Source of the DNA: Candidatus Taylorbacteria bacterium RIFCSPLOWO2_12_FULL_43_20
Lineage (GTDB): Bacteria > Patescibacteriota > Minisyncoccia > Phycocordibacterales > HO2-43-120
Assembly: GCA_001821295.1 (NCBI GenBank)
Contig: MHSK01000024.1
Location: 1-51,877 of the forward strand
DNA length: 51,877 bases
Direction of reading: 5' to 3'
Shown here: positions 20,566-47,279 of the stretch, piece by piece
Layout of the letters: the number at the start of each line of letters is the position of its first letter
Numbering within the stretch: the first letter of the stretch is position 1
Notes under the pieces: generated by a model
Databases searched by the model: none
What the model was told of the DNA's origin: nothing
Seen by the model: the letters and a program-made list of their open reading frames with translations, nothing else
Made by a program: the position numbers and the translations under genes

Positions 20566-22083
20566 ATGCCCGGAAAAAGAGACGTGTTTCAAAAAAAATA
20601 TATAGGCAAAGATTATGTCGCGTATGGCAGTGATCTTGTTTTGGACAAAGAAAAAGCGTGGAAGCAAATCTCTAGACGCGCTCGGAGATCAATAGAAGAG
20701 GCAAAAAACATACCAAATTTGAGGATAGAAAAAAGGGAGGGCAATGAAGAGGATATGAAATTATTCAGAAGCGTCTGGTATGATTCCGAGGATAAAGATC
20801 TTGATATGAATAACTTTGGCAAAAACACTCACCATACGTACTTTGCTTACTTGGATGGGAGGTTTGTAGCCGGGATTATCGCCGCGGAGGTAAAACATCA
20901 TTTATTTTTGCAGTTTTTAGGTTCAAATGATGAAGCGAAGAAACTCAATATCCCCAGCTTCCTTATATGGCATATTGTCCACGAATTTCATGGCTCAAAA
21001 CACAAATTTTTGGACATCGGTTGTTCCTTTCGATCGACACTGCAGGAATTTTTCAAAAATTGGGCGACTTATGAGTATCCGATAATTTACCATTCTCCCG
21101 ATCTGACCCCGAAGATAGACGCAACGCCTTTTGGTTCTGAGAGTATGAATGTTTTGCCCGATGACTCGGTGAATGTGGACGTGGAATTGGAGAAAAAGTT
21201 TGGTCCAAGGGAGTTTACGTATTTTCCCAGGGGAAAATACGCGATATATTCCATACTGAAGCATCTTGATTTAAAAAAAGACGAAGAAGTTTTTATAACC
21301 ACAACCACAGGATCCCCCTATCTTTCAATAGGCGTTTCTACGACCATTGAGGATGTGTGTCTGTGGTCGCGCAAGATAGGCAAAAAAACCAAAGCTATTT
21401 TTCTAATACATGAGTTTGGTTTTGTACACCCTAAACTGAAGGAAATGCGCGAACTGGCCGATAGGTTGAAAATTCCCTTGATAGAAGACTGTGCCTATGC
21501 CTGGCAATCAGGAGAGGCGGGTAAATATGGAGACTTCGTTATTTATTCTTTTCCTAAGTTTTTTCCCGTTCAATATGGAGGGTTATTGGTCGGTAAACAT
21601 TTTGCAGACAGGGATATCTGGGACAGGTTTTCTTGTCTTGATGTTGGAAAAACAGAGGTTATAAAAAGGCAGCTTTCATCTTATATTAAAGACATACAAG
21701 ATATTGTACGGAAAAGAAGAGAAAATTATGCGTATGTTGAGAAGCTGTGCAGGAATGAAGATTTTGAACCTTTTTTTGATATTAAGGATAATGAGACGCC
21801 GGGAATGTTTGTTTTAAAAGTGGAAAATCACGATAAAATAATAGAAATATGTTCCAGACTTAAACTATTCGGAATAGAATGCGGAGGGTATTATCATAAT
21901 GATGCCGTGTTTCTGCCTATTCATCAGAACCTCGGCAAAGCCCATCTGGATTATATTTTTGGAGCTTTGAGATCGCGATATCGGCTTGAGAATGGAATAT
22001 ATCCACCTGAATATTTTGACAAAATTTATGAGAGTAAAAGAGATAGAAACGATAGGGCAGAAGAGGGATGGGGGAAACAGTAA
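20566..22083 (+). CDS. FemAB/GNAT-like acyltransferase fused to a DegT-like aminotransferase
   Basis: A 505-residue two-domain protein. Residues about 20-175 resemble the FemAB-like GNAT fold: AWKQISRRARRSIEEAK, a YFAYLDGRFVAGIIAAE strand pair, FLQFLGSNDEAKKLNIPSFL and FLDIGCSFRSTLQEFFKNW. Residues about 215-480 follow the DegT/DnrJ/EryC1 plan: LIEDCAYAW (PLP-ring aspartate D308) and YSFPKFFPVQYGGLLV, where K331 sits at the PLP-lysine position although the loop is about two residues shorter than usual. A plausible job is transamination of a keto-sugar and acylation of the new amine in one polypeptide. The domain calls are by motif reading; activity of the second domain is uncertain. Confidence 0.8.
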   Translation: MPGKRDVFQKKYIGKDYVAYGSDLVLDKEKAWKQISRRARRSIEEAKNIPNLRIEKREGNEEDMKLFRSVWYDSEDKDLDMNNFGKNTHHTYFAYLDGRFVAGIIAAEVKHHLFLQFLGSNDEAKKLNIPSFLIWHIVHEFHGSKHKFLDIGCSFRSTLQEFFKNWATYEYPIIYHSPDLTPKIDATPFGSESMNVLPDDSVNVDVELEKKFGPREFTYFPRGKYAIYSILKHLDLKKDEEVFITTTTGSPYLSIGVSTTIEDVCLWSRKIGKKTKAIFLIHEFGFVHPKLKEMRELADRLKIPLIEDCAYAWQSGEAGKYGDFVIYSFPKFFPVQYGGLLVGKHFADRDIWDRFSCLDVGKTEVIKRQLSSYIKDIQDIVRKRRENYAYVEKLCRNEDFEPFFDIKDNETPGMFVLKVENHDKIIEICSRLKLFGIECGGYYHNDAVFLPIHQNLGKAHLDYIFGALRSRYRLENGIYPPEYFDKIYESKRDRNDRAEEGWGKQ

Positions 22084-28147: not shown

Positions 28148-28963
28148 ATGTTTCTTTCTGAGTCTATAAAGAGAAAATTAAGAAGAAGCCGCTTAGCCAG
28201 AGCGTTCTATCAAACTTGCCTTAAAAAAATTGTAACATTTCCACTGCGCTTTACTAAACTTAGAGTCCTACAGCTTAGAAATTTTCCACTTAAGGACCTA
28301 TTCAATCCCGATAAGACCTCTCTGTTGGTTACTGTCGCTCCTTACACGCAGGCAGGGTATCCGCGAATGACGAATATATATGATTTATCAAAGGACGTAG
28401 AGCAAAGACAATTAGCCGGAGCTTTTGTGGAATGCGGGACTTGGAAGGGCGGATGCGCGGCGGTTATGGGGGCGATTGCGAAGCGTTATGGAAGCAGAAG
28501 AAAAACGTACTATCTTGATTCTTTTGAAGGCATGCCGCCCGCAACAAAAGAAGACGGTCCGGGATCAGCAAGACTCGCTGGAGACAAACTTAAAGCATCA
28601 ATGGAGGATGTGAAGGAGCTTGTTTTCGGAAAGCTTCATCTTTCTCCCGATAAAAATATTTTGGTTAAGGGATGGTTTGAAGATACATTGCCGAAAGTAA
28701 AAAAAGAAATAGGGCAGATAGCCATACTTCGCTTGGACGCTGATTGGTACTCCTCAACAATGACTATTCTTAACGAACTCTATGACCAAGTTGTGTCCGG
28801 AGGATTCGTGATTTTTGACGACTATGGCACATGGCCGGGGTGTAGGCAGGCAGTCCATGAGTTTATAGAAAAAAGAAAGTTAAAAGTTAAATTCCAATAT
28901 ATAGGCACGAACGACCCGACCGCTTTCGGCAAACTTCCGCCTATGTATTTTGTGAAGCCATAG
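28148..28963 (+). CDS. TylF/MycF-like sugar O-methyltransferase
   Basis: A 271-residue methyltransferase of the macrocin-O-methyltransferase (TylF) family, which methylates sugar hydroxyls in a metal-dependent way. It shows GAFVECGTWKGGCAAVM (SAM site), TYYLDSFEGMPPA, ILRLDADWYSSTMTILNELY with the metal-binding aspartates, and GGFVIFDDYGTWPGCRQAV, where the D-D pair completes the metal site. The first 45 residues are basic and may contact membrane or acceptor. The match covers the whole family length. It probably caps or decorates a glycan sugar. It has its own promoter. Confidence 0.9.
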   Translation: MFLSESIKRKLRRSRLARAFYQTCLKKIVTFPLRFTKLRVLQLRNFPLKDLFNPDKTSLLVTVAPYTQAGYPRMTNIYDLSKDVEQRQLAGAFVECGTWKGGCAAVMGAIAKRYGSRRKTYYLDSFEGMPPATKEDGPGSARLAGDKLKASMEDVKELVFGKLHLSPDKNILVKGWFEDTLPKVKKEIGQIAILRLDADWYSSTMTILNELYDQVVSGGFVIFDDYGTWPGCRQAVHEFIEKRKLKVKFQYIGTNDPTAFGKLPPMYFVKP

Positions 28964-31663: not shown

Positions 31664-31691
31664 TTGACGGCTTCTATAATGTAATTATACT
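31664..31691 (+). promoter_or_regulatory. Sigma70-type promoter of the cyclitol-type cassette
   Basis: TTGACG (31664-31669), a 16-base spacer and TATACT (31686-31691) are each one mismatch from consensus. The predicted start near 31698 gives a leader of about 55 bases to the ATG at 31753. It makes the four-gene group that follows a transcription unit separate from the acetylation pair. Confidence 0.55.
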
Positions 31692-31752
31692 TTTTATTTC
31701 ATGATTTGTCAATATGCTTAAAAGGTCATGAGAGGGTATATTTAAACCTATT

Positions 31753-32742
31753 ATGGCTAATGAGAAGATTGCAGAATTTCTAAACAAATTGGGAATTCAA
31801 AAAATAAAGCAAATCAAGGCCTTCCCCAAAGGGAATATCAATGAATCTTATTTTGTGGATTCCGAACTTGGATCTTATGTTTTTCGAATTTATTTTCACA
31901 AGCAAAAAAAAGAGATTGAAGACGACCTTAAACTCTTACGCCGCTTGAAAGGAATACCTGTCCCTCGCCCCGAGGTTTTTAAAGGCGGAGAAATACATAA
32001 ATTAGGAGACAAGTGGGTTGTGCTGTTCAGTTTTTTACCCGGCGCGCATGCTAAAGATTTTGACATTAACTTGCTAAGCGAAGTCGGTAAATTTTTAGGA
32101 GTTTTTCATAAATTATCTAAGAAATCAAAATGGAGAGGCCCTAAAACAAAATTTTATGGCTTGACGAGATCCAAAATACATGAGATTAAACTGGTAATTG
32201 AAAAAACCGACATTCCTCATAAAAAATTTTTTCCAGAGATACTGGGAGAGCTTGAGATGAATTTGATAAGAAGGCGTCTGCCCGAGGGGCCCATACATAC
32301 AGATGTTAAACCCGAAAATGTTCTCTTTAAAGACGGTAAGTTATCCGGCGTTTTGGATTTTGACAACGCCTATGTCGGTCCGCTCATTTTAGATGTCTCC
32401 AAGTCAATGGCTTGGTTCGGATCTAAAAATAGAATGTTTGATATGAATAAGGCAATCCACATATATCACGGCTATCAGCATACTCGGCGCTTAACAGCGA
32501 TTGAAAAAGAGGAATTTTACAAAATGCTCCGTTTCGCATTTGTAAGCCATGTCTTTATGGATTATTATATGTATGCCACGGGTAAAATCTCCAGAAAATA
32601 TTTTGATTTTATAGTTAAAAATTTCTACGCGAGCTATAAACATTTCAAACAAACGCCTAAGGAGAGTTTTATGAAATTGCTGACCAGTATTTTACCGCCC
32701 ACTACCCACCGGGTTCCATTGAAACGGCGGAAAGGAAACTAG
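31753..32742 (+). CDS. Aminoglycoside phosphotransferase-fold small-molecule kinase
   Basis: A 329-residue kinase of the APH/choline-kinase/homoserine-kinase-II fold. FPKGNINESYFVD and YVFRIY cover the nucleotide loop and lysine strand; the catalytic loop is IHTDVKPENVLF (D184, N189), and the metal aspartate follows in GVLDFDNA (D202). It therefore phosphorylates a small hydroxyl compound with ATP. In this context (CDP-alcohol phosphotransferase, sugar-phosphate cyclase and nucleotidyltransferase directly downstream) the substrate may be a cyclitol or sugar alcohol made by the cyclase. Choline- or homoserine-kinase activity cannot be excluded from sequence. Confidence 0.87.
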   Translation: MANEKIAEFLNKLGIQKIKQIKAFPKGNINESYFVDSELGSYVFRIYFHKQKKEIEDDLKLLRRLKGIPVPRPEVFKGGEIHKLGDKWVVLFSFLPGAHAKDFDINLLSEVGKFLGVFHKLSKKSKWRGPKTKFYGLTRSKIHEIKLVIEKTDIPHKKFFPEILGELEMNLIRRRLPEGPIHTDVKPENVLFKDGKLSGVLDFDNAYVGPLILDVSKSMAWFGSKNRMFDMNKAIHIYHGYQHTRRLTAIEKEEFYKMLRFAFVSHVFMDYYMYATGKISRKYFDFIVKNFYASYKHFKQTPKESFMKLLTSILPPTTHRVPLKRRKGN

Positions 32743-32779
32743 ATACTTAATCCTTTCTGTTTTTCGCATATTATCATTT

Positions 32780-33511
32780 ATGGTTTCTCTATCAATAAAA
32801 GAACTTCGTCATAAATTGCAAAGAACGGCTCCCGAAGGCGCGTCAGAAACCTATGTGGGAAAGAGCGTGCGTTTTTTTTCCATATATCTTACGAAGGCGG
32901 TTTCCGCCACACGCGCAACTCCCAATCAGATCACCTTTTTGGGCGTGCTCATATTTCTTTCGGGTGTATCGGTCTTTTTATTCCGATCCTACGCATTAAA
33001 TTTTCTTGGGGTTGCCCTGATTTACGTTTCTATTATTTTTGATGCCGCAGACGGAGAGGTTGCCCGTCTAAAAGGCAATCAAAGCGGCATAGGCGGCAGT
33101 TATGTTGAACCGCTGAGTCATGACTTCCAGTACGCGCTCATGTTTATTCCGCTCACTTTGTCAGTTTATATTTCCACGAGCGAGGTCGTGATTGTTTATG
33201 TCGGTTTCGCGGCAACCGTCTTCAAGCTATTGCATAGATTTCTGACTATAAGATTTGAGCACGTATTTATGATGAAAAACGGCACAAGCAGGGATGCAAT
33301 TGGCAGCGATGAAAAATATATTTCACTGCCGCACAAAATTTATAAATTTTTTAACAGAAATATATTCAGCTCCGTAGGGCTTCCCATACCGCTTCTGGTT
33401 TTTGTCATACTAGACAGGGTTGATTTGTTCATATGGTTTTTCGCTATTGGTTTTTTTGTCATATTCGCCGCTAATTTTGCTTATCAAATGAAATATATTA
33501 TTAAGCATTAG
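32780..33511 (+). CDS. CDP-alcohol phosphatidyltransferase family protein, variant motif
   Basis: A 243-residue membrane enzyme with about six hydrophobic helices. The family motif appears as FDAADGEVARLKGNQSGIGG (D88, D91, G92, A95, R96), but the last two metal aspartates of the usual D-x2-D-G-x2-A-R…G-x3-D-x3-D are Glu110 and His114 (GGSYVEPLSHDFQY), with Asp115 next to the histidine. Members move a phospho-alcohol from CDP to an acceptor alcohol. Here it would transfer the CDP-activated product of the adjacent genes to a lipid or glycan. The altered motif may mark a subfamily with a different acceptor. Confidence 0.87.
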   Translation: MVSLSIKELRHKLQRTAPEGASETYVGKSVRFFSIYLTKAVSATRATPNQITFLGVLIFLSGVSVFLFRSYALNFLGVALIYVSIIFDAADGEVARLKGNQSGIGGSYVEPLSHDFQYALMFIPLTLSVYISTSEVVIVYVGFAATVFKLLHRFLTIRFEHVFMMKNGTSRDAIGSDEKYISLPHKIYKFFNRNIFSSVGLPIPLLVFVILDRVDLFIWFFAIGFFVIFAANFAYQMKYIIKH

Positions 33512-33550
33512 AAAGAGAATGTGCATATTTTAAATGGATAACTTAAATTG

Positions 33551-35395
33551 ATGAAAAAAGGAATTATCGTCATAGAACCAAAAACTCCGCGTCTCAATTA
33601 TTTAAGGACAGAACTGCCTTTCATATTGATCTATGGGAAGCCGCTAATCCATCATCACATAGAGAATCTTATTGACGCCGAGGTGTTTGACATTGTAATT
33701 GTAATTCCCAATACGCTGGAAAAAGATCTGCGCGGCCAACTCGGTGAATTTTTTCAGGAAAGAGCCAAAATAAAAGTAAGCATCTACTTGGGCGAGAATT
33801 ATTTTCTGGCTTTAAAAAATATTCTAGCGAACACGGAAGCCGATGATCACCATATTATTTTTACGGGGCTTATATCGGAAAAAAACCCGCACAAGTTTTT
33901 TCTGAAGAAAAAAAAGCTGGAATTACTTATTGACAAAAATTTATTGCATAACAAATTTTCAGGAGCGCGAAACAAAGTCAAGACCGGCCTATTCGGCATA
34001 AAAGAAATAGGACCCGACATCACCGGTTATAACGCTGAATTGCAAAGGGCGTATTACATGAACAAAGAAGGCGCTCAAGAAATAGCGCGGATAATGGATG
34101 GGAATCCCGATTCAACGCTTGAGAAAGCCATAATGGAATGGGGTTTGTCCAATAAGATTGGTATTTTGAATCACGGCAAGTATTTGTGGTATGAAATCAA
34201 CTCCCCGGAAACAGCTATCCGAGCCGAAATGCTTTTCAGGCGCAAGAAAGAAAACGCGCGCCCGACCGAAGTCAAAACAGACAGATTTATTTACCCAGAC
34301 ACTTCGCTTCATTTCAGGTATGAAAAATCCAGAGAGACACCCGTAATTATTGAACAAGGTATTCTTGACAGAATTGACACACTACGTCTTATGGACCGGG
34401 ATAGGACAGCATCTCACCACATTATGATCACGGATACGGTTGTGGACAGACTTGTGGGGAAAAAAGTGGAAGAAAAGTTAACAAAAGCAGGGTATTCCCT
34501 TACGAAAATCATAGCTCCGTCTGGTGAAGCCGCGAAAACAATGAATGTCTATCATGAGTTGTCAGAAAAAATCACCAGTATCGGAATAGACGAGCAGTCC
34601 GTCATATTTTCTTTGGGTGGAGGAGCTATAGCTAACCTTGCCGGTTTTCTCGCCGCCACTCTGTACAGGGGAATAGGGCTTATTCATATTCCCACATCAC
34701 TGATGTGCATGAATGATGTGGCCATAAGCTTAAAGCAAGGCATAAACAATCAAAAAGGCAAAAATCTGGTAGGCAGCTACTATCAGCCGTTGCTTGTTGT
34801 AATAGATCCTTCCGTTCCCATGAATGAAACCATCATCAGGCACGGAATGTCAGAGACGATAAAGCATGCTTTAGCAGAGGATGTCGCCTTTTTTGATTAT
34901 TTGCTATCATACAACGGTGATTTGAAGGATGTAAATTTTCTTGAAAAAATCATAAGGCACACGATTGAACTCAAAATAGGGCTTATGAATGACGATATGT
35001 TTGAAAACGCGAGGGCTATCATACTTCAATACGGGCATGAGGTGGGGCACGCTATAGAATATCTTTCACATTTTGGCTTGACTCACGGAGAAGCAATTTC
35101 AATCGGAATGAGAGTGTCGGCGGAAATTTCGCATCTTATGGGTGTCACTTCCGAGGATACTGTTTACGCACATAAAAAAATATTGGAACATTACAAACTG
35201 CCTTATATTATTCCTCAAACCATTGAAAAAAGAGCGATATTGGACGCTTTGCGATTCAATAAAAAAACAAGAGGTAATGACATTCGTTTTGCTTTACTGG
35301 AACATGTGGGTAAGATATGGAAGATAAAAGGTGAATACGGCATTCCTTGCCCCGTTGAAATTATAGAAGAGGCGATCAGAAGAAGTTATGAATAA
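33551..35395 (+). CDS. Degenerate nucleotidyltransferase fused to a DHQ/DOI-synthase-like sugar-phosphate cyclase
   Basis: A 614-residue fusion. Residues 1-230 have the nucleotidyltransferase fold outline (RTELPFILIYGKPLIHHHIE; LWYEINSPETAIRA at the end), but the LAAGxGxR loop is replaced by IEPKTPRL and the PKP lysine by Phe, so catalysis is doubtful. Residues 250-614 are a dehydroquinate-synthase-fold cyclase: SGEAAKT, SLGGGAIANLAGFLAAT, PTSLMCMND, SLKQGIN, GKNLVGSYYQP, metal ligands E435 (GMSETIKHA), H496 (QYGHEVGHAIE) and H512 (THGEAISIGM). S-L-K-Q in place of G-G-K-T recalls 2-deoxy-scyllo-inosose synthases as I remember them. It is probably NAD-using and would form a carbocycle from a sugar phosphate. 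Start ATG 33551; it overlaps the next gene by eight bases. Confidence 0.88.
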   Translation: MKKGIIVIEPKTPRLNYLRTELPFILIYGKPLIHHHIENLIDAEVFDIVIVIPNTLEKDLRGQLGEFFQERAKIKVSIYLGENYFLALKNILANTEADDHHIIFTGLISEKNPHKFFLKKKKLELLIDKNLLHNKFSGARNKVKTGLFGIKEIGPDITGYNAELQRAYYMNKEGAQEIARIMDGNPDSTLEKAIMEWGLSNKIGILNHGKYLWYEINSPETAIRAEMLFRRKKENARPTEVKTDRFIYPDTSLHFRYEKSRETPVIIEQGILDRIDTLRLMDRDRTASHHIMITDTVVDRLVGKKVEEKLTKAGYSLTKIIAPSGEAAKTMNVYHELSEKITSIGIDEQSVIFSLGGGAIANLAGFLAATLYRGIGLIHIPTSLMCMNDVAISLKQGINNQKGKNLVGSYYQPLLVVIDPSVPMNETIIRHGMSETIKHALAEDVAFFDYLLSYNGDLKDVNFLEKIIRHTIELKIGLMNDDMFENARAIILQYGHEVGHAIEYLSHFGLTHGEAISIGMRVSAEISHLMGVTSEDTVYAHKKILEHYKLPYIIPQTIEKRAILDALRFNKKTRGNDIRFALLEHVGKIWKIKGEYGIPCPVEIIEEAIRRSYE

Positions 35396-36143
35396 ATTTA
35401 CGGCGGTAATTTTAGCGGCGGGGATGGGGTCTCGGTTAAAACATCTCACAAAAGACCTGCCTAAGCCCCTTGTTGAAGTAGGAGGAAAATCTTTGATCTG
35501 GTACGCCATAAGTTGGGCTAAATCCTTAGGTGTGTCAAAAATCGTGGTGGTGGGAGGGTATAAATTTGAGCTTCTAAAAGAGGCGGTAAATTTAATTGAT
35601 TCATCCGTAGTGATGGTTGAAAATGAAGAATACGCTACGACGCAGAGAATGGTCAGTCTTCTTAAGGCCAGAGGAGAAGTTGAGGGCGGACTATATGTGC
35701 GCGACGCCGATTATATTTTTGACACCTCTCTTGCGAATAAATTCAAAAAATATTTTGATGGTACGGTTATTTTCGGCACGGGAAAGGACTCGGTTGGTGT
35801 CGGGCTGGACATGAAAGTCAAATTGGATGACGACGGGAACCTCCTGGACATGTCAAAAGAGCTCACGGATTATGATTATTTTTTCTGCACGCAAGTTTTT
35901 TCAGAAGAAAAAAAAGTTTCTATCCTGCTTCAAGCCGGAGAAGATCTCATAAAGGAAAAAGGGGACGGCATGGTGCATGTTGAGGACGCTCTTCTTAAAA
36001 TGGTAAAGGACGGCGAAACGGTGAGATTTATTGACGTGGGAGCTCCTAAGTGGGTTGAAATTGATACTATAGAGGAATATGAGCGAGCAAACGAGCTGGT
36101 AAGCAACAAAGGAGAAAATGTGGCTGTGGAACTATTGCAGTAA
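35388..36143 (+). CDS. Sugar/alcohol-phosphate nucleotidyltransferase (IPCT/LicC-like)
   Basis: A 251-residue nucleotidyltransferase with an intact active site: AVILAAGMGSRLKHLTKDLP then KPLVEVGGKSLI (nucleotide loop and lysine), the metal-binding aspartate in VRDADYIF, and KWVEIDTIEEYERANE at the C terminus. The short length and the VEIDT ending resemble inositol-1-phosphate or choline-phosphate cytidylyltransferases. It overlaps the cyclase gene by eight bases, so the two proteins are made together; it probably supplies the activity lost from the N-terminal domain of that fusion, giving CDP-cyclitol for the CDP-alcohol transferase upstream (inference). Confidence 0.88.
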   Translation: MNKFTAVILAAGMGSRLKHLTKDLPKPLVEVGGKSLIWYAISWAKSLGVSKIVVVGGYKFELLKEAVNLIDSSVVMVENEEYATTQRMVSLLKARGEVEGGLYVRDADYIFDTSLANKFKKYFDGTVIFGTGKDSVGVGLDMKVKLDDDGNLLDMSKELTDYDYFFCTQVFSEEKKVSILLQAGEDLIKEKGDGMVHVEDALLKMVKDGETVRFIDVGAPKWVEIDTIEEYERANELVSNKGENVAVELLQ

Positions 36144-36215: not shown

Positions 36216-39200
36216 ATGAATAGATTAATAAACCACAAGATTGGTCAAATTTTTCGCAGTTTAAAAGATGGCAGACCGGCATGGCTATGGATTATAGGCA
36301 TATTTGCCGCCATTAACTTTTTCCTGACTATTTTTCTTGGTTATCTATTCTTAAATAATTATAATATCTGGTGGGTTATCAGCGCGGTTCCTCAAGCTCC
36401 GCGGCGGACGGTGCAGGCTGTAATTGATTGGGTTAAAGAAATACCCTACATTCCGTATCAGTTCATAGATGACGGTCTTCCTCGCTACGACATTGTGCTG
36501 ACAAAAGCTGATTATGAAGAGCTTTTGGAGAATCTGCCGCGCGACATCAGTCAGTTTTTGACTGATGAAAATAAAATAAAGAAAAGAGCTGTTTTTAGAC
36601 ATGGTAAAAAAGTCTACGAAGCGAAGGTGGGTTTCCGCGGCGATGGCTCTGGACACTGGTTTTGGCCGAAAAAATCTTGGAAGGTTAAGTTGGCTGACGG
36701 GAATTACATTGACGATATGAGGGAAATTAATTTTATTTTACCCGATGAGCGTCAGTATATTGTTGAGGCTTTTAATAATTATCGCACGCGTAAATTAGGA
36801 TTACCGTATCTCAAAGACGGATGGGGTGTGCTTTATGTAAATGGTGTCAAGCAAGGGGTATATTATATCTCTGAATCATGGGGAAGCGAATTTCTAGCCA
36901 GAAACTCTCTTAATGACAACGGAACTTTGTATGGAGACAAGTATCCGCCATCGCCCAAAGATCATTATTCCATTTATGGAAAGTTTGATGATATAGCTGA
37001 TTTTTGGAAAACATACACATCACAGCCAAAAGAACGTGAGGTTGGCGACGATGAGAATTTATCAGTTTCATCAAGCAATATACCTGACGTCAGCATAACT
37101 GCGTTATCTCAATTTTTTAAAGTCGTCAACTCTGAAGACGAGTATTTCAAAAAAAATATTTGGAATGTTGTAGACAAAGAAGATTTCTATAATTGGTATA
37201 TGCAATCTAAATTGTCCGGCAGTTATCATCAATACTGGATGAACAACGCTCGTATGTATTTTGATCCGGAGATTGGGAAAATGCGCGTCATTCCCGTGGA
37301 TGTGGGTATTTACACTGATGCTATTCCTTATTTTTTTCTTGGCACAAACTCGCTTGTTGACCGGTTGATTAAAAATCCGGATTTTATTACAGAAGTTGAG
37401 AGGCGGCTTTATAAATATGTCAGTGATGAGAAAAATCTTGAAGAAGATCTTGCTTATTATGATTCCTTGTACAAAAAAGTGAGAATTGCATTTTATCAGG
37501 ATCATTTGGATGAGAACACCGGCAAATCATTTGATAAGACGGTGGCGAGCGGCAGGGACGCAATTATTGCCAATTTTCACGCAATTTCAAAACATATAGA
37601 AAGTGCGGAAGTAGAAAACATCGTGACGCTGAATGCAGGGACGAATGGCAATTTATTTGAGGGCAAGAGAATCTTGGCTGAATTGCATGTTAAGGAAAAA
37701 AGCGCGGCGCCTATTGTCTTGCGTTCTTTATCTGTTCCGGCATTTTCTTCCGAGAACTCCCCGGAGCTTTATGAAGATGTTAATCTTAATGGATTTCTTG
37801 ACTCCACAGACCGAAAAGTGGGAGTTTTCTCGTTTTCAGCCGAAAAAAAAGAATGGGTTATTGGCAGTCTTAAAGAAGTTTTTAACCCATCTTTATCTTT
37901 GTTGAATAGCGATGAAATTAATAATATCGGCAATCTAGAATTCGCCAAAAAAGTTTACGAAATATCCGCAACTGAAAAAAAATATTTTATTGCCGCTGAA
38001 AATATTGCCGGCGAGCGATTCAAAATAAAGACATTTTTTGAAAACCTTATATCAAGTAAAGAAATTCAACCATTACGCGAAGTGTACGTGGATCAGTCTA
38101 TATTCGCGGATTTTGACGCGGTTTCGTATTCGCAGGACGAGTTTTTGGCGATGAACCCCATATTTTATAAGATAGATGACAATACTCTGGGCGTTGGTCC
38201 GGGAGTTTTTGATCTCGCTAATACGGTCGTAATTCCAAAGGGCCAGATCTTATCTGTCAGTTCGGGCACTACGTTGCGCTTTTCTCCAGGCGTGTCCTTT
38301 TTCTCTTATGGAAAAATCCTGGCGCGATCGTCATCAGGTAATTCAATACGATTTGTAAAATCCGGTAAAGACCCGTGGGGAGTTTTCGCTCTTATTGAGG
38401 CGCCTGGCACGAGCGTTTTTGACGGTGTTGTGTTTGAAGATGGGGGAACCGGGCTCATAAACGGCGCATATTTTTCTGGAATGCTAGCCGCTCACCACTC
38501 GGATATAATAGTGCGAAATTCCTTTTTTAAGGGGGCGACCGGTGATGATGCGCTTAACGTCAAGCACGCGAGTTCTTCCATTGTTTCCAATCAATTCACG
38601 GCCAATCAATTTGACGCTATAGATCTGGATTGGGGTAATTTTTCGTTTGTCAAAGACAACGTGTTTGAGCAAAATGGTGATGACGCGATTGATCTCGGAG
38701 GAGCGCAAGGTGTCGTCATAATGGATAATTTTATAAAAAAATCAGGTGATAAATGCATTAGTATTGGTGAAAAATCAGTCAGACCGTTGATTATTAATAA
38801 TATTCTATCGGGCTGTAAGATCGGAGTACAGGTTAAGGACGGGTCCGATCCGATTATAGCCAACAACATAATATATGGAAATGATATTGGCATAGATGCT
38901 TATGAAAAAAAGGGTATTTATGGAGGGGGTTATGCCGAGGTTTATAATTCTATTATTTGGGGAAATAAAGTATCGTTGTCAATGGATGAGTTTTCCACTA
39001 TTAAAGTCGTATCCAGTAATGTTGAGGGGGGGTGGCGGGGCGACGGTAATATCGCGGTTCCCCCTTCTTTTAAGGATGCTGACGGCGGTAACTTTACTAT
39101 AGGAAAAGGAAGTGATAGTATCTTATTGTTATTTCAAGAGGGAGGAGAGAGGTCTGTTTTGACAGACTATTTTGGATTAAATCTTGAAAAGATTCCTATA

Positions 39201-39218
39201 GGCCTTTTGAACCAATGA
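36216..39218 (+). CDS. CotH kinase-like protein with C-terminal beta-helix
   Basis: A 1000-residue exported protein with an N-terminal membrane anchor (residues 22-47). Residues about 90-420 match CotH: GFRGDGSGHWFWPKKSWKVK, YVNGVKQGVYYISESWG, WMNNARMYF and VIPVDVGIYTD, giving candidate N344 and D362 metal ligands. CotH proteins are atypical kinases known from spore coats. A beta-sandwich-like middle leads to a right-handed beta-helix at about 690-930, with repeats such as IVRNSFF, IVSNQFT, FVKDNVFEQNGDDAIDL and IIANNIIYGNDIGI, usual for glycan binding or cleavage. It overlaps the VTC gene by four bases (ATGA). It could phosphorylate or anchor cell-surface material. Confidence 0.87.
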   Translation: MNRLINHKIGQIFRSLKDGRPAWLWIIGIFAAINFFLTIFLGYLFLNNYNIWWVISAVPQAPRRTVQAVIDWVKEIPYIPYQFIDDGLPRYDIVLTKADYEELLENLPRDISQFLTDENKIKKRAVFRHGKKVYEAKVGFRGDGSGHWFWPKKSWKVKLADGNYIDDMREINFILPDERQYIVEAFNNYRTRKLGLPYLKDGWGVLYVNGVKQGVYYISESWGSEFLARNSLNDNGTLYGDKYPPSPKDHYSIYGKFDDIADFWKTYTSQPKEREVGDDENLSVSSSNIPDVSITALSQFFKVVNSEDEYFKKNIWNVVDKEDFYNWYMQSKLSGSYHQYWMNNARMYFDPEIGKMRVIPVDVGIYTDAIPYFFLGTNSLVDRLIKNPDFITEVERRLYKYVSDEKNLEEDLAYYDSLYKKVRIAFYQDHLDENTGKSFDKTVASGRDAIIANFHAISKHIESAEVENIVTLNAGTNGNLFEGKRILAELHVKEKSAAPIVLRSLSVPAFSSENSPELYEDVNLNGFLDSTDRKVGVFSFSAEKKEWVIGSLKEVFNPSLSLLNSDEINNIGNLEFAKKVYEISATEKKYFIAAENIAGERFKIKTFFENLISSKEIQPLREVYVDQSIFADFDAVSYSQDEFLAMNPIFYKIDDNTLGVGPGVFDLANTVVIPKGQILSVSSGTTLRFSPGVSFFSYGKILARSSSGNSIRFVKSGKDPWGVFALIEAPGTSVFDGVVFEDGGTGLINGAYFSGMLAAHHSDIIVRNSFFKGATGDDALNVKHASSSIVSNQFTANQFDAIDLDWGNFSFVKDNVFEQNGDDAIDLGGAQGVVIMDNFIKKSGDKCISIGEKSVRPLIINNILSGCKIGVQVKDGSDPIIANNIIYGNDIGIDAYEKKGIYGGGYAEVYNSIIWGNKVSLSMDEFSTIKVVSSNVEGGWRGDGNIAVPPSFKDADGGNFTIGKGSDSILLLFQEGGERSVLTDYFGLNLEKIPIGLLNQ

Positions 39219-39997
39219 ATTTACAACCAGAATTTCACTTCAGGCGTTTTGAGATCAAGTATTTAACGGATGAAGATACGGCTGAAAACATAAAAAAAGA
39301 TTTAATGCCCTATCTGAAACACGATCCTTTTGCAGATCAGGAAGCAAAAGAGTATGAAGTAAGGAGTGTTTATTATGACAGCCCGGGATATTTTTACTAT
39401 CAAGAAACTCTTGATGGCTATAATTCAAGGAAAAAAATCAGAGTAAGATGCTATCGGACTGGCGGCCAGATTAAAGACAATGCTTTTCTTGAGATCAAAC
39501 GTAAAGAAGGAGTAATTGTTGTAAAAGACCGCATACGGCTTAATCTGGAAGAATTGCGTCAATTTCAAAAAACGGATACGTTACTGGATAGCGGACGGTC
39601 TTTTTCTTCCAAAGAAGAAAATTTCATAAAAGAATATGAGTTTGAAAGGGTTATCAGGGCGCTTTCTCCTAAAATTTTGGTAACTTACACGAGGGAGCCA
39701 TACGCGGGAGTGTATGACGAAGGCCTCCGAGTGACTTTTGACAGAAATATTAAAGCGGCTCAGAATGACAATCTTTTCTATGATGGAGGCGACATGGAAA
39801 GAATTCATCCGGGTGAGGTTGTGGTGGAGATCAAGTTCAGAAGGGGCCTTCCTGTATACATGGGGGAAACTATAAAAAAATTCAGCATGATAAGAGTTCC
39901 TTTTTCCAAATATCGGAAGGGGGTGGAAGAAACACGCGCCATACCCGGGAGTTTTCCAGGCATCACGCGGGGTTTTGAAACAGTTTCGTATATTTAA
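39215..39997 (+). CDS. VTC-domain (polyphosphate polymerase-like) protein
   Basis: A 260-residue cytoplasmic protein of the VTC fold, a tunnel lined with basic and acidic residues. It has HFRRFEIKYLTDEDTA, YYDSPGYFYYQETLDGY, KKIRVRCYRT, FLEIKRKEGVIVVKDRI, LVTYTREPYAG, LRVTFDRNIKA and VVVEIKFRRGLP; the alternating E-x-K and R-x-R strands are those that bind ATP and polyphosphate in yeast Vtc4. In bacteria, VTC, CotH and DUF4956 genes recur together; the joint function is not settled. Start and stop overlap the CotH gene by four bases. Confidence 0.9.
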   Translation: MNLQPEFHFRRFEIKYLTDEDTAENIKKDLMPYLKHDPFADQEAKEYEVRSVYYDSPGYFYYQETLDGYNSRKKIRVRCYRTGGQIKDNAFLEIKRKEGVIVVKDRIRLNLEELRQFQKTDTLLDSGRSFSSKEENFIKEYEFERVIRALSPKILVTYTREPYAGVYDEGLRVTFDRNIKAAQNDNLFYDGGDMERIHPGEVVVEIKFRRGLPVYMGETIKKFSMIRVPFSKYRKGVEETRAIPGSFPGITRGFETVSYI

Positions 39998-40004
39998 TTA
40001 TAAT
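39975..40004 (+). promoter_or_regulatory. Internal sigma70-type promoter before the DUF4956 gene
   Basis: TTGAAA (39975-39980), an 18-base spacer and a perfect TATAAT (39999-40004) overlap the end of the VTC gene. The predicted start near 40011 is eight bases before the ATG at 40019. Confidence 0.5.
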
Positions 40005-40018
40005 TAGAGATAATCACC

Positions 40019-40711
40019 ATGAATGATTCCATGAATGAATTGTTAAATCTGGGTACGAGCCAACTGCAAAACCCGACGCTTATTATAACCGGCATACTGA
40101 CCTCTTTTGTTATCGCGCTCATTATCGTATATATTTATCGCAAGACGCACAGAGGGCTTTCTTATTCTCAGTCATTTGTCGTAACTCTTATTTTTGTCAC
40201 TATGGTGGCGGCCGTTGCGATGATGGTCATAGGTAATAATGTAGCAAGAGCCTTCGGTCTCTTGGGAGCTTTTTCTATCATTCGCTTCAGAACTGTTGTG
40301 AAAGAACCCAAGGACATAAGTTATATATTTTTTGCTCTTATAGAGGGAATGGCTGTTGGAACCGGTAGTTATTTGATTGCGATCATTTCAACCATACTTT
40401 TTTCAATAATTTTAATTACACTGCATAGGTTTAATTTCGGATCTTATCAACCGAAGAGATACCTGCTCTCTTTTCTAGTGGGTTCGGAAGTCAGACATGA
40501 GGAAAATATTTCTGCGATATTCAACAAATATTTAAAAAACAGTTTATTGCTAAACGTAAATTCTAAAGATGACGGAAAAATGAGAGAAATGATTTACGAT
40601 ATTGATTTTTTTGAAAAAGGCAAAAGCGGTCCGTTTGTTTCTGAGCTGGCTTCAGTCCAAGGGGTTGAAAAGGCCCGCATAATCACATCCACAACGGACA
40701 TTGAGTATTAG
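40019..40711 (+). CDS. DUF4956 family membrane protein
   Basis: A 230-residue protein with an N-terminal membrane domain (helices at about 22-41, 52-72, 99-140) and a cytoplasmic C-terminal domain. The signature NNVARAFGLLGAFSIIRFRT then VVKEPKDISYIFFALIEGMA, with GTGSYLIAI after it, is diagnostic of DUF4956. The C-terminal half has an ACT-like or ferredoxin-like alternation (LLLNVNSKDDGKMREMIYDI). It is the usual third partner of CotH and VTC genes, probably a membrane channel or transporter of the module (inference). It has its own candidate promoter. Confidence 0.88.
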   Translation: MNDSMNELLNLGTSQLQNPTLIITGILTSFVIALIIVYIYRKTHRGLSYSQSFVVTLIFVTMVAAVAMMVIGNNVARAFGLLGAFSIIRFRTVVKEPKDISYIFFALIEGMAVGTGSYLIAIISTILFSIILITLHRFNFGSYQPKRYLLSFLVGSEVRHEENISAIFNKYLKNSLLLNVNSKDDGKMREMIYDIDFFEKGKSGPFVSELASVQGVEKARIITSTTDIEY

Positions 40712-43130: not shown

Positions 43131-43179
43131 TATAATCAAGTCTAATTTTTGAATTATAGATTCTGTGTTTAGATTCACA

Positions 43180-43869
43180 ATGTTTATGAAAAATTTTCCT
43201 TCACAAGAAGCGATTGACATATATAACTATTTTAAAACGTTGCCTGGTTCGGAACATATCGGCAAGCCTGTAAGCATAGATGCTCTGATTCAAATATGCG
43301 GCGAAATTAAACCACAAAGAGTTTTGGAAATGGGGGGAGGAATAGGGGCGTTAAGTTATACCCTTCTAAAATATTCAAACGCGTTTCTTGATATTTATGA
43401 GGATAATGAATTTTGTATAGGTGAGTTGCGAAAAAATCTCGCAGAATATAAAGAAAGATTTCAAATAATATCCGCCTACAATGTTCTTCCTCCTTCAAAA
43501 AATTACGACTTGGTTGTTATTGACGGGGGAACCGGAACTGAAGGCGACGGCGGCTATTCCTTAGCAGCCCGGCTTTTTCTCTTATACATTGATTCAGTAA
43601 AAGTGGTATATCTGGAAGGGTACAGAGGCATGCAGAGAAGGTTGGCAAGATTAGCTCTGCGAGAGAAGTATGTCTGCCGTTACACGCCTTACAAGGAGAT
43701 CTATGTGGAAGGAAAAAAATGGCATGGCGGACTGAAGATTGTTTGCCGCTTGGTCAGATCAGGTTTTGTAAGGTGGACAGACTTTTGTTTTTGGGAACTA
43801 TCGTCTGAACTCAGGAGATGGTATTTCAGAATTAAGAATATAGGCAAATCCGCCAAGTCAAAAAAATGA
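43180..43869 (+). CDS. SAM-methyltransferase-fold protein of unknown substrate
   Basis: A 229-residue protein with a Rossmann methyltransferase outline: RVLEMGGGIGALSYTLLKY, LDIYEDNEFCIGELR and YDLVVIDGGTGTEGDGGY, the last placed like the O-methyltransferase acidic loop. The second half is divergent, with a basic C-terminal tail (RIKNIGKSAKSKK). It might modify a glycan or be a non-methylating relative; I do not recognise a named family. ATG 43180 is used, though GTG 43165 and ATG 43186 are possible. The hisF-like gene overlaps its end by four bases (ATGA). Confidence 0.75.
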   Translation: MFMKNFPSQEAIDIYNYFKTLPGSEHIGKPVSIDALIQICGEIKPQRVLEMGGGIGALSYTLLKYSNAFLDIYEDNEFCIGELRKNLAEYKERFQIISAYNVLPPSKNYDLVVIDGGTGTEGDGGYSLAARLFLLYIDSVKVVYLEGYRGMQRRLARLALREKYVCRYTPYKEIYVEGKKWHGGLKIVCRLVRSGFVRWTDFCFWELSSELRRWYFRIKNIGKSAKSKK

Positions 43870-44633
43870 TTGTGCCAAAAAAAATAAGAGTTATACCCCG
43901 TTTGGACATAAAGGGCGCGAATGTTATTAAAGGGGTTCATCTGGAATGCTTGCATATTGTCGGAAACCCAGAAGAAATGGCGACTCGCTATTATAGCCAG
44001 GGAGCCGATGAGCTTATATACATGGATGTTGTGGCAAGTCTCTACGGACGAAATAATCTGTTGGATATTGTGGAAAAAACCGCCAAGAATGTTTTTATTC
44101 CCCTCACTGTTGGCGGAGGCATAAGATCCATTGATGATATAAAAAGCGTATTGAGGGCCGGAGCTGATAAAGTGGCCATCAATACTCATGCGACGCTAAA
44201 TCCCCAGTTTATTACGGCGGCGGCGAGGACTTTCGGCTCACAGTGCATTGTTGGATCCATCGAGGCAAAAAAAATCAATGAAGACAGGTGGGAGGTTTTC
44301 ACGGACAACGGCCGGGTTGAAACCGGTTTAGACGCCGTGAATTGGGCGATAAATCTTGAACAACTTGGAGCGGGCGAGCTTCTTATTACTTCCATAGATC
44401 AGGAAGGAACGGCAAAAGGGTATGATACCGAACTTATCAAGAAAATAGCTCCCAATATATCAATACCCGTGATTGCCTGCGGCGGAGCCGGAAAGCCAGA
44501 GGATATGGTCCTTGCGGTAAAAGAAGGGTTCGCGGATGCTGTAGCTGCGGGAAACATATTCCACTATAATAAATATTCCATCGCGGAGGTAAAAAAATTT
44601 CTCAGAGAAAGAGGTATTGATACAAGGAGTTAA
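43866..44633 (+). CDS. hisF: HisF-like cyclase subunit of a sugar amidotransferase
   Basis: A 255-residue (beta/alpha)8 barrel homologous to imidazole glycerol phosphate synthase HisF. It shows PRLDIKGANVIKGVHLE (D14 equals HisF D11), ADELIYMDVVAS, TVGGGIRSIDD, GAGELLITSIDQEGTAKGYD and IIACGGAGKPED, given here as the GGAG segment, at the end. The second catalytic acid of HisF (D130) is Glu133 here (GSIEAKK). Together with the following HisH-like protein and PP-loop amidotransferase it matches the WbpG/HisH/HisF set that delivers ammonia from glutamine to make an amidino sugar, rather than histidine synthesis, as no other his genes are near. Confidence 0.9.
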   Translation: MIVPKKIRVIPRLDIKGANVIKGVHLECLHIVGNPEEMATRYYSQGADELIYMDVVASLYGRNNLLDIVEKTAKNVFIPLTVGGGIRSIDDIKSVLRAGADKVAINTHATLNPQFITAAARTFGSQCIVGSIEAKKINEDRWEVFTDNGRVETGLDAVNWAINLEQLGAGELLITSIDQEGTAKGYDTELIKKIAPNISIPVIACGGAGKPEDMVLAVKEGFADAVAAGNIFHYNKYSIAEVKKFLRERGIDTRS

Positions 44634-44637
44634 GATT

Positions 44638-45270
44638 ATGCGCAAGACAATAGTCATAGATTATGGATTTGGCAATTTGTTCAGCTTGACGAAAGCGTTG
44701 GCATTTTTAGGCGCGAATTACTCTGTCTCAGATAATCCTGAGGAGGTAGAAAAGGCCGAGGCCATAATATTACCCGGTGTTGGAGCGTTTGGTGATGGGA
44801 TCGCAGAACTCAATAAAAGAGGCCTGAACGAAGCGGTAATTGAGGGAGCGAAGAGGGGGATACCACTACTTGGAATTTGCCTAGGGATGCAATTTCTTTT
44901 TGAAAAAAGTCATGAGTTTGGCGAACATAAAGGATTGGGTTTAATCAAGGGGGAAGTTAAAAGAATTACGCTTACAGAAAAGCCATTTTTCAAAATTCCT
45001 CATACGGGATGGAGTCCTTTGTTGCCTCCGGATGGAACAGAGGGATTTAACAATCCTCTTTTTTCAGGAATTAAGCCCGGGTCAGAGGCGTATTTTGTGC
45101 ATTCTTATGCCGGAAAAAGTCAAACAGATGATATAATAGCAAATACGATTTATTGTGAGACGAAAATTCTTGCCGCGGTTGGCAAAGGCAACGTGTTTGG
45201 AACTCAATTTCATCCGGAAAAAAGCGGAGAAATCGGAATTCAAATTCTTAACAATTTTCTTTCCTTGTAG
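44638..45270 (+). CDS. hisH: HisH-like glutamine amidotransferase subunit
   Basis: A 210-residue class I glutaminase. It shows MRKTIVIDYGFGNLFSLTKA, LPGVGAFGDGIAEL, the catalytic Cys81 in LLGICLGMQFLF, the HTGWSPL and VHSYAG segments, and the His-Glu dyad in FHPEKSG near the C terminus. Ammonia released here should pass through the HisF-like barrel. ATG 44638 is chosen because AAGGAG lies eight bases upstream, one of the few good Shine-Dalgarno sequences in the window; an in-frame TTG at 44617 lies inside the hisF-like gene. Confidence 0.92.
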   Translation: MRKTIVIDYGFGNLFSLTKALAFLGANYSVSDNPEEVEKAEAIILPGVGAFGDGIAELNKRGLNEAVIEGAKRGIPLLGICLGMQFLFEKSHEFGEHKGLGLIKGEVKRITLTEKPFFKIPHTGWSPLLPPDGTEGFNNPLFSGIKPGSEAYFVHSYAGKSQTDDIIANTIYCETKILAAVGKGNVFGTQFHPEKSGEIGIQILNNFLSL

Positions 45271-45297
45271 GAGCTTGATTTCCACGGTATTTATAAA

Positions 45298-46581
45298 ATG
45301 ATTAACAAAGAACAAACAAAAATGGGCGGTAAAAGTTTTTCTCCCGGGTATGGCTTGCCGGGCGATGTAAAATTCTGCAAAAAGTGTGTTATTCCGAATA
45401 CTCGGCCGACAGCTTCAAATGAATACACGCATATGAAAAGACGACCCCATGACTACATTAGCTTTGACGACGAGGGGGTCTGTTCAGCATGCAGATTTTG
45501 TGAAGCTAAATTTGACGGGACTATTGATTGGAAAAAACGAGAGGAGGAGCTTCTGGAGCTTCTGGATAAATACAGAAGCAAAGACGGATCGTATGACTGT
45601 CTCGTGCCAGGATCCGGAGGAAAAGACAGCGTTTACGCGTCCCATATTTTGAAGACAAAATACGGTATGCATCCTCTGACGGTCACTTGGGCGCCGCATT
45701 TGTATACTGATATCGGCTGGAAAAATTTTCAGAATTGGAGTCATGTCGCAGGACATGATAATTATTTGTTTACACCGAATGGAAAAGTTCATCGCATGCT
45801 TACTCGCAATGCTTTTTTGAACTTATTGCATCCTTTTCAGCCCTTTATCCTAGGTCAAAAAACCTTTGCCGTCAAAATGGCGGCGCGTTTTGGGATACCT
45901 CTTGTATTTTACGGTCCATGTCCCGGAGAAAATGGCGGGAATACGCCAATAACGCAGAACAAGTATATATTCAAAGACTCGGAGTCTGAGACAGATAACA
46001 AGAACGGATTCAGAATGGATTACGTAAATTCTTCAGCTAATTTTGATGAAATTTATTTGGGGGGTAAAAAAGTATCGGATTACTTTCGAGAGGGCTTGAC
46101 ACAGGGCGATTTGGCGCCGTATTTACCATTGGACACTCGTGTGATAAAGGAAAAAAACATTGGATTTTATTTTTTGGGATATTACCTCAAGTGGGTGCCT
46201 CAAGAATGCTACTATTATGCTGTTCAAAATGCAGGTTTTGAGGCCAATCCCGCTCGTTCCGAGGGCACATACTCCAAATATTCTAGCCTGGACGATAAGA
46301 CAGACGGATTTTTTTACTACACCACTTATATTAAATTCGGGTACGGAAGAGCTACGCAAGATGCCGCGCAGGAGATAAGGCACGGACATATTACGCGGGA
46401 AGAGGGAGTGGCTCTGGTTAACAGGTTTGACGGAGAATTTCCAAAAAAATATTTTAAGGAATTTTTGGATTATATTGATTTATCAGAGTCGGAATTTTGG
46501 GTAAAAATTGATGAATTTCGCGATTCTCTTTTGTGGGAAAAGACGGGGCAAGACTGGAAATTAAAATATAAAATTACTTAA
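45298..46581 (+). CDS. N-acetyl sugar amidotransferase (WbpG/PseA-like, PP-loop)
   Basis: A 427-residue enzyme that adenylates a sugar amide and replaces it with an amidino group, using ammonia from HisH/HisF. It has a zinc-finger-like pair of C-x2-C motifs (FCKKCV at C27/C30; VCSACR at C62/C65), the ATP-binding PP-loop PGSGGKDSVYAS, then TVTWAPHLYTDIGWKN and LTRNAFLNLLHPFQPFILGQ. The family size is normal. It completes the amidotransferase trio. Possible products are a ManNAc3NAmA-type uronate or an acetamidino-nonulosonate; nearby NeuB/C/A genes make the second attractive but do not prove it. Confidence 0.92.
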   Translation: MINKEQTKMGGKSFSPGYGLPGDVKFCKKCVIPNTRPTASNEYTHMKRRPHDYISFDDEGVCSACRFCEAKFDGTIDWKKREEELLELLDKYRSKDGSYDCLVPGSGGKDSVYASHILKTKYGMHPLTVTWAPHLYTDIGWKNFQNWSHVAGHDNYLFTPNGKVHRMLTRNAFLNLLHPFQPFILGQKTFAVKMAARFGIPLVFYGPCPGENGGNTPITQNKYIFKDSESETDNKNGFRMDYVNSSANFDEIYLGGKKVSDYFREGLTQGDLAPYLPLDTRVIKEKNIGFYFLGYYLKWVPQECYYYAVQNAGFEANPARSEGTYSKYSSLDDKTDGFFYYTTYIKFGYGRATQDAAQEIRHGHITREEGVALVNRFDGEFPKKYFKEFLDYIDLSESEFWVKIDEFRDSLLWEKTGQDWKLKYKIT

Positions 46582-46586
46582 AAAAA

Positions 46587-47279
46587 ATGGGATTACCATA
46601 TTTACCACCGGAGGATATATTAAGTCAGAACACAAATATTAGGTCAAATTTGGCTCAAGGACGGCCGACTTGGTGTGTTCGTTCGGGCCTTGCGCAGTCG
46701 CTTATTTACAAGAGAACGAACGCGAACTCCGCGATTTTAGAAGTGGGTTGCGGGGCGGGCGCTTTGGCTTCGGAGCTGATTGAAAAAGGGTATAAAAAAA
46801 TTGCTTTAGTTGATATTGACGACTATCTCATGGAAGATGTCCGTCAAAAAGTGGACATTAAACTTTTAGACGTCTGCTTTAATCCTTTGCCTTTCAATGA
46901 TAACACCTTGGATTCGGTTTTGGCGTTCGCCATAGTCGAACATTTGGAAAATCCGTATTTTTTCGCGCGGGAAGTTTCTAGAATATTAAAAAAAGGAGGT
47001 GTTTTCTTTTTTTCAGTGCCCAATATCTTTTCATTAAGAGCTAAGCTCGGTTTCATGTTCCGTGGTGATATCAAGGGATATTCAGAAACTAATAATCACA
47101 TAACTCTTTTTACCAAAGCGGTTTTCAATAAAGTTTTTTGTAAGCATTTTGTCATTAGCGAGATTTATTTTGATCAAGGTTACATTTCCTTATTAGGAAA
47201 GAAAATCAGGTTTCCTAAAATGAATTTTTTCGGCAAATGGTTCGGGGCAAAGGTTCTTTATGTTCTGGAAAAAAAATAA
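46587..47279 (+). CDS. Class I SAM-dependent methyltransferase
   Basis: A 230-residue methyltransferase. Motif I is AILEVGCGAGALASELI, motif II IALVDIDDYL; LLDVCFNPLPFNDNTLDSVL and AFAIVEHLENPYFFA cover motifs III-IV, then LKKGGVFFFSVPNIFSLRAK. This resembles methyltransferases of other glycan loci and has a residue pattern like the copies at 16275 and 42318. It starts five bases after the amidotransferase stop with no clear ribosome-binding site. The target is probably a sugar of the same glycan. Confidence 0.88.
   Translation: MGLPYLPPEDILSQNTNIRSNLAQGRPTWCVRSGLAQSLIYKRTNANSAILEVGCGAGALASELIEKGYKKIALVDIDDYLMEDVRQKVDIKLLDVCFNPLPFNDNTLDSVLAFAIVEHLENPYFFAREVSRILKKGGVFFFSVPNIFSLRAKLGFMFRGDIKGYSETNNHITLFTKAVFNKVFCKHFVISEIYFDQGYISLLGKKIRFPKMNFFGKWFGAKVLYVLEKK

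Follow-up and report, generated by a model that had tools for sequence, protein, structure and literature searches.

A conserved four-gene cassette for a possible CDP-activated cyclitol phosphate in a surface-glycan locus of Candidatus Taylorbacteria

Introduction

Sugar phosphate cyclases (SPCs) are known to act in the shikimate pathway and in the biosynthesis of aminoglycosides, acarbose-type antibiotics and sunscreens. Activation by CTP is familiar from IPCT-DIPPS, which is an inositol-1-phosphate cytidylyltransferase and CDP-inositol:inositol-phosphate transferase, and from LicC and PntC, which activate a small polar group. The subject of this article is a cassette in which genes related to all of these stand side by side. 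It occupies positions 31753-36143 on the plus strand of a 51,877-nucleotide stretch of DNA (contig MHSK01000024.1, Candidatus Taylorbacteria bacterium RIFCSPLOWO2_12_FULL_43_20), the whole of which we call the window. The same four gene families occur in five other small genomes, Patescibacteria-type or unclassified, giving six module loci with the window. With a probability of roughly 0.6, we think the four genes would form the core of a pathway in which a cyclitol is made, activated with CDP and placed as cyclitol-phosphate on a surface glycan or, less likely, a scavenged lipid.

Some steps of such a pathway have precedents. SPC reactions lose phosphate (PMC5133447), so a kinase that re-phosphorylates the product fits. 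That a cyclitol from an SPC can be activated with a nucleotide is established for GDP-valienol in acarbose and validamycin (PMC9200736). An isoprenoid-cyclitol has been proposed as the product of the ebo operon, which encodes the SPC EboD and the UbiA prenyltransferase EboC (PMC5133447).

The window genome (G000 in our collection) comprises about 1.0 Mb on 38 contigs, with completeness rated 100%, and its nameable relatives are bins of Patescibacteria, also called the candidate phyla radiation (CPR).

The cassette and its proteins

Four intact open reading frames (ORFs) run head to tail behind a possible promoter.

31664..31691, plus strand: possible sigma-70 promoter, TTGACG-16-TATACT, 10/12 match, in the 115-bp intergenic gap 5' of the cassette
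31753..32742, plus strand: APH-fold small-molecule kinase, 329 aa (PF01636 APH, E=6e-26), proposed cyclitol kinase
32780..33511, plus strand: CDP-alcohol phosphotransferase (CDPOH), 243 aa (PF01066, E=2e-7), proposed cyclitol-phosphate transferase
33548..35395, plus strand: fusion of a nucleotidyltransferase (NT)-like domain and an SPC, 615 aa, with a degenerate NT at about residues 1-245 and a cyclase of what we call the KQ/QYGH clade at about 255-615
35388..36143, plus strand: intact LicC/IPCT/PntC-like NT, 251 aa (PF00483/PF12804), proposed CTP:cyclitol-phosphate cytidylyltransferase

As matches between the ORF list and Pfam or NCBIfam, the four assignments lie well outside what chance would give. 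The start of the fusion is probably its second codon, the ATG at 33551. Intergenic spacings are 37, 36 and -8 bp in order, the last an overlap between the fusion and NT genes; such small gaps and the overlap are compatible with a single transcription unit. A first-pass annotation, made by a model from the letters and an ORF list, had placed one promoter in front of these genes. A single promoter is plausible and the 10/12 match is there, but the claim is weak, because promoter-like sites are no commoner in the region than in shuffles (32 found, 26.9 +/- 5.2 in shuffles) and because a perfect site overlaps it on the other strand. That minus-strand site is a 12/12 sigma-70 consensus, TTGACA-17-TATAAT, at 31712-31684, facing back into the upstream gene.

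The kinase has its motifs intact (HxDxxxxN as IHTDVKPEN, and DFD), and its best NCBIfam relatives, far below the cut-off, are homoserine kinases. The stand-alone NT keeps GxGxRL (as AAGMGSRL), PKPL (as LPKPL) and the metal Asp, D108; among the solved structures nearest to it are PntC, LicC and IPCT. All three are cytidylyltransferases, and from this kinship CTP would be its nucleotide. In the NT domain of the fusion GxGxR is gone, as are the metal Asp, the Lys in PKPL and the Asp in DIDTP; the other NT-SPC fusions of a 12-sequence alignment keep these motifs almost entirely. Since the separate NT is intact and the fused domain degenerate, it is presumably the former that carries the nucleotidylation activity in the window.

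Residues 321-573 of the fusion match the dehydroquinate synthase (DHQS) domains PF01761 and PF24621. Its AlphaFold model has a mean pLDDT of 86.7, and the listed Protein Data Bank (PDB) matches are all cyclases, with TM-scores by target length of at most 0.90 (about 0.86-0.89 to DHQS and 2-deoxy-scyllo-inosose synthase, DOIS, targets), so that the fold assigned to the N-terminal domain rests on sequence profile and not on structure. NT-SPC fusions are also present in a proteobacterial bin and in Myxococcota and Bradymonadia (L090-L098, L108); one of the hosts is the isolate Lujinxingia vulgaris, for whose NT domain IPCT-DIPPS is the best cytidylyltransferase model. Such fusions would tie the cyclase to nucleotidylation. 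In Myxococcota-type fusion genomes there are also CDP-alcohol transferases of about 390-435 aa (L131-L133), with a long N-terminal extension and the canonical D...D, which are possible distant partners of the fusions.

The first-pass annotation had given the four ORFs these identities, and all are present and intact, the IPCT/LicC-like enzyme with complete motifs. Of its NT-like/cyclase fusion both parts are found, with the qualification that the NT half, degenerate here, looks intact in relatives.

The CDPOH matches PF01066 above the cut-off and keeps DxxDGxxAR, its motif reading D88xxD91GxxAR...G...E110xxxH114. The final two Asp in the family motif DxxDGxxAR-x8-9-GxxxDxxxD are replaced by Glu110 and His114, a pair found in 6/6 module members; the protein of Candidatus Falkowbacteria (L087), without a one-residue insertion, has it at the canonical spacing. 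In the predicted model both residues open helix 110-133. Judged from this invariance, the Glu/His enzyme is presumed active. Its fold matches, at moderate TM-scores, are AF2299, IPCT-DIPPS and the phosphatidylinositol phosphate (PIP) synthases PgsA1 and PIPS, and the best NCBIfam matches are archaetidylinositol phosphate (AIP) and PIP synthases. Related D...H transferases form a wider subfamily, seen in G341, G149 and G395, each time with an NT nearby. Its member in G149 (L161 5184-10716) stands with a phosphonate cassette (a phosphoenolpyruvate mutase-NT fusion, phosphonopyruvate decarboxylase, a PsrA-like iron alcohol dehydrogenase and an NT), a coupling that suggests the NT-CDPOH pair may be able to serve other alcohols.

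A cyclase outside the AroB family

By its DHQS fold, zinc ligands and NAD site the cyclase is a member of the SPC superfamily. E436, H497, H513, K396, K439 and K476, which include the Glu/His/His zinc ligands and the NAD/phosphate residues, are invariant among the aligned fusions. Scores against the NCBIfam aroB model are 263 for the window, 265 for L087, 265.5 for L102 and 270 for L091, with a curated cut-off of 305. The diagnostic DHQS residues are K152, R264 and N268 in Aspergillus numbering. The window cyclase reads LKQG instead of GGK-T and has Ala490 and Gln494 where DHQS references keep, four residues apart, the Arg of the DAHP (3-deoxy-D-arabino-heptulosonate 7-phosphate) carboxylate and an Asn. 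Wherever the motif can be read, members of its clade carry KQ(A/G)(I/V)N and QYGH, and the position four residues ahead of the Gln is not Arg. Reference fingerprints are KT/KV with R...N for DHQS (E. coli and others), KQ with E for DOIS and KT with D for sedoheptulose 7-phosphate (S7P) cyclases. Most other CPR cyclases retain the DHQS-type Arg and Asn.

The first-pass annotation had proposed a tree as a check, and the tree sets the cyclase outside AroB, beside DOIS. In this maximum-likelihood analysis, whose reference set is without EVS, DDGS, aminoDHQS and EboD sequences, 22 KQ/QYGH sequences group together (98/99), and their sister group is DOIS with two CPR sequences (100/97); DHQS and S7P cyclase references fall outside, the latter in a separate 100/100 clade. 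Chorismate synthase (PF01264), the one aro gene checked for a shikimate pathway, was not found in G000 or G369 (control 14/14). Stand-alone clade members in loci of Ralstonia, Chloroflexi and Bdellovibrionales have a short-chain dehydrogenase/reductase (SDR) nearby. A KQ cyclase without the DHQS Arg was also seen in G846 (L173 646-2694), with a long N-terminal region that by eye resembles a LacI-type sugar-binding domain.

Conservation as a unit, and a fifth gene

A search for the fusion in 380 genomes of the phylum gave one other full-length example, G369; 381 genomes of the class of G369 added G684 and G453, and a scan of genome contigs added L087 and the bin PMV_2 (L100/L111). There was no other full-length fusion among 384 genomes of the window's class, and a contig scan with a single query sequence gave no matches. 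Co-occurrence of the four genes had been a further check proposed in the first-pass annotation, and it holds: relatives of the kinase, CDPOH and NT adjoin the fusion in all five other genomes. The window order (APH-CDPOH-fusion-NT) is kept in two of them, G453 and L087, with a zinc alcohol dehydrogenase of the medium-chain dehydrogenase/reductase (MDR) family in front. In G369, G684 and PMV_2, whose locus is spread over two contigs, the order is CDPOH ... fusion-APH-NT, with the MDR dehydrogenase divergent between.

Compared with the window, the CDPOH, SPC and NT of G453 and L087 are 43-59% identical and the kinases 38-39%. From locus to locus, pairwise identity in one of the four proteins correlates with that in the others (r 0.72-0.96, over 14 non-independent pairs with a near-duplicate pair dropped), and such matching matrices point to inheritance as a unit, as far as few and non-independent pairs can. 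The cassette is rare. CDPOH orthologues above 250 bits occur, in the 380-genome sample, solely in the two genomes that have the fusion.

The MDR dehydrogenase adjoins the cassette in five of the six loci (L087, G453, G369, G684 and PMV_2), called with Pfam in G453 and G369 and with NCBIfam in L087 and G369, and is 43-68% identical within the group. A dehydrogenase on contig C3, the one match in the window's own genome, was rejected as its counterpart, being 22-32% identical, in another locus and not orthologous to the group. A GFO/IDH/MocA protein at 19464 was considered as the missing reductase and not assigned, because its neighbours (4,6-dehydratase-like, acetyltransferase/DegT and DegT) suggest an amino-sugar pathway.

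An independent arrangement occurs in G341 (L159 6833-12696), where a divergent SPC without the DHQS Arg lies with an SDR, a glycerate-2-kinase-like kinase, an NT and a CDPOH. Here the same chain of activities would be built from a non-orthologous kinase and reductase and from another cyclase lineage, which we regard as strong, if indirect, support for the pathway.

A proposed pathway and its rivals

In the scheme that we propose, the cyclase domain would convert a sugar phosphate to a ketocyclitol with loss of phosphate; the likeliest substrate is a hexose 6-phosphate, of the kind used by DOIS, the nearest characterised relative. In the other five loci the MDR dehydrogenase would reduce the ketone to a cyclitol, and in the window genome some other reductase would do so. 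The kinase (31753-32742) would re-phosphorylate the cyclitol, the NT (35388-36143) would convert it to CDP-cyclitol, and the membrane CDPOH (32780-33511) would move cyclitol-phosphate to an acceptor, releasing CMP. The substrates and products are all inferred, as are the acceptor, the succession of the steps and CTP as the nucleotide. From the sequences themselves come the identities of the genes, their conserved catalytic motifs, their retention together as a unit, a cyclase phylogeny outside AroB and the failure to find chorismate synthase, CdsA or inositol-phosphate synthase. The first-pass annotation had proposed cyclisation, phosphorylation, CDP activation and transfer to lipid or glycan. 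This fits the conserved gene set but omits the reduction, which the fifth gene would supply in relatives; as for the acceptor, a glycan or a scavenged lipid is favoured and a lipid made from CDP-diacylglycerol is not.

Several observations weigh against the pathway. The window lacks the MDR dehydrogenase (the best match in G000, on another contig in an unrelated locus, is 26% identical), and its fused NT domain is degenerate; with both gone, the window version may differ from the others or be partly decayed. Two catalytic Asp of the CDPOH are swapped for Glu and His, and the kinase sequence gives no substrate specificity. The clade has Gln where DOIS has Glu, so the use of hexose 6-phosphate is not assured. 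Support for the module clade, 94/89, falls slightly below the starred threshold, and the complete set is seen in six loci only, from draft metagenome-assembled genomes. Around fusions of the Myxococcota type the other cassette genes are missing, and their genomes have CDP-OH proteins that are only distantly related.

That the cyclase is merely a divergent AroB of the shikimate pathway, beside CDP-alcohol genes by accident, is hardly credible, and was rejected: aroB is its best NCBIfam model and its fold matches DHQS as well as DOIS, but the window, L087, L091 and L102 all score below the cut-off, Arg/Asn and GGKT have become Ala/Gln and LKQG, the tree groups it with DOIS rather than DHQS, and chorismate synthase was not found. 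Nor is it probable that the kinase makes a cyclitol-phosphate acceptor which the CDPOH condenses with CDP-diacylglycerol, in the manner of AIP and PIP synthases. The CDPOH resembles these enzymes in its NCBIfam and fold matches (PgsA1, PIPS), yet no CdsA-type CDP-diacylglycerol synthase (PF01148) was found in G000, G369, G684 or G453 (control 13/14), and PF01066 occurs in G000 once, in the cassette (control 14/14). A CDP-diacylglycerol route to a lipid headgroup is unlikely on these two counts. It would also leave two NT domains unexplained in what is a glycan locus, and CPR bacteria are described as unable to make membrane lipids (PMC7242380). As a source of the cyclitol, myo-inositol was set aside, since inositol-1-phosphate synthase was not found in G000.

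The remaining alternatives change the substrate. Choline is the typical substrate of APH kinases and LicC-like NTs, and the kinase, NT and CDPOH could act on a choline-, ethanolamine- or glycerol-like alcohol, as Lic-type enzymes do, while the cyclase serves a separate sugar pathway of the locus; the related His-variant CDPOH and NT beside the phosphonate pathway of G149 lend this some colour. We find it unlikely, though it deserves a hearing, given that all other aligned fusions join an NT domain to this same cyclase clade, that the four genes stay together in 6/6 module loci and that G341 arrived at an SPC-reductase-kinase-NT-CDPOH locus independently. Somewhat further from our expectation is a C7 cyclitol of the valiolone type, made from S7P in place of a C6 inosose and followed by the same later steps. 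Loci of S7P cyclases do combine the cyclase with a ROK kinase and an MDR dehydrogenase, and the C7 cyclitols of acarbose and validamycin are activated as GDP derivatives (PMC9200736); the window cyclase, however, lacks the S7P cyclase fingerprint (KTG..., D(Y/F)GHTFSP) and lies outside the clade of those enzymes.

Taken in its broadest form, the CDP-cyclitol pathway would be a new surface decoration, in which a new clade of SPCs makes a cyclitol de novo and the cyclitol is CDP-activated and phosphodiester-linked to surface glycan by a Glu/His CDPOH, in CPR-type bacteria with no detected phospholipid head-group pathway; the KQ/QYGH clade would have a new specificity and serve also in Myxococcota and in glycan loci of Burkholderiaceae. 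We rate this as slightly less likely than not. If true, a cyclase feeding a CDP-alcohol transferase in glycan loci would define a new class of bacterial surface polymer, the sole CDP-alcohol transferase of a reduced genome would have a function, and a clade of proteins likely annotated as AroB would prove to be misnamed.

Surroundings of the cassette

The surface-glycan locus of the window contains glycosyltransferases, a flippase-like protein, an MBOAT, dehydratases, aminotransferases, NeuB, UDP-GlcNAc epimerases and many methyltransferases. Directly 3' of the cassette (36216-40711) come a CotH-kinase/beta-helix protein (1000 aa), a VTC-domain protein and a DUF4956 membrane protein, consecutively. 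Further on (43165-51777), a HisF/HisH-like pair, NeuB, UDP-GlcNAc 2-epimerase and CTP_transf_3 resemble a nonulosonic-acid pathway. At 20566-22083 one protein combines an Acetyltransf_6 (GNAT) domain with a partial DegT aminotransferase domain. A TylF-type methyltransferase lies 5' of the cassette (28148-28963), and in G453 (L068 7608-9119) a TylF domain, 38% identical to that of the window, is fused to the cassette NT; with this fusion in G453 alone, the case for TylF as a pathway member was too weak and was dropped.

The window genome has a second candidate sugar cluster on contig C3 (region 12000-22000, L166, at 2339-7023), with two transketolase-half-like ORFs, an MDR dehydrogenase, a possible SDR and a possible PfkB-like kinase, all but the MDR judged by eye.

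Comparison with known systems

The first-pass annotation had thought the pairing of a cyclase with a CDP-alcohol transferase undescribed. We likewise found none in the open-access literature, nor anything there on TIGR04425; most subscription papers lay outside the search, and novelty is not proven. The nearest published analogue found for an SPC with a membrane transferase is the ebo operon, a non-AroB SPC clade partnered by EboC. EboD is not in our tree, and ebo differs in having a UbiA prenyltransferase instead of a CDP-alcohol transferase and no described kinase or nucleotidyltransferase. UbiA and the other ebo genes were not among the window ORFs scanned with Pfam.

For the cyclase, the nearest named clade (100/97) is that of DOIS (BtrC; PDB 2d2x/2gru). 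The cassette enzyme has in common with it the K-Q that follows the NAD loop, a small residue where DHQS has its Arg, the zinc ligands and the fold. It differs in its separate clade (98/99), in having Gln for the Glu before YGH (BtrC chain position 243), in its fusion to an NT domain and in a cassette without an aminotransferase partner. Acarbose and validamycin biosynthesis (AcbC-AcbM-AcbL-AcbU-AcbR; ValB/VldB) likewise leads through SPC, kinase, dehydrogenase and nucleotidyltransferase to an NDP-cyclitol (PMC9200736), but there a C7 cyclitol from S7P is activated with GDP and transferred by a pseudoglycosyltransferase rather than a CDPOH, in antibiotic-type clusters.

The later steps have their closest relatives in IPCT-DIPPS (PDB 4mnd, 2xme) and AF2299 (4o6m), a cytidylyltransferase and a CDP-alcohol transferase for a cyclitol phosphate that are related in sequence and fold to both cassette proteins. 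Unlike theirs, the cassette's cyclitol would come from a DHQS-fold cyclase and not from inositol-phosphate synthase, its CDPOH has E/H instead of D/D, and its genes lie in a surface-glycan locus. LicC and PntC (1jyk, 6pd1) are the best solved relatives of the window NT, whose cassette is without choline or 2-aminoethylphosphonate genes. We rate the individual pieces as known, and what would be new as their combination, in which a new SPC clade supplies a CDP-alcohol cassette for surface decoration.

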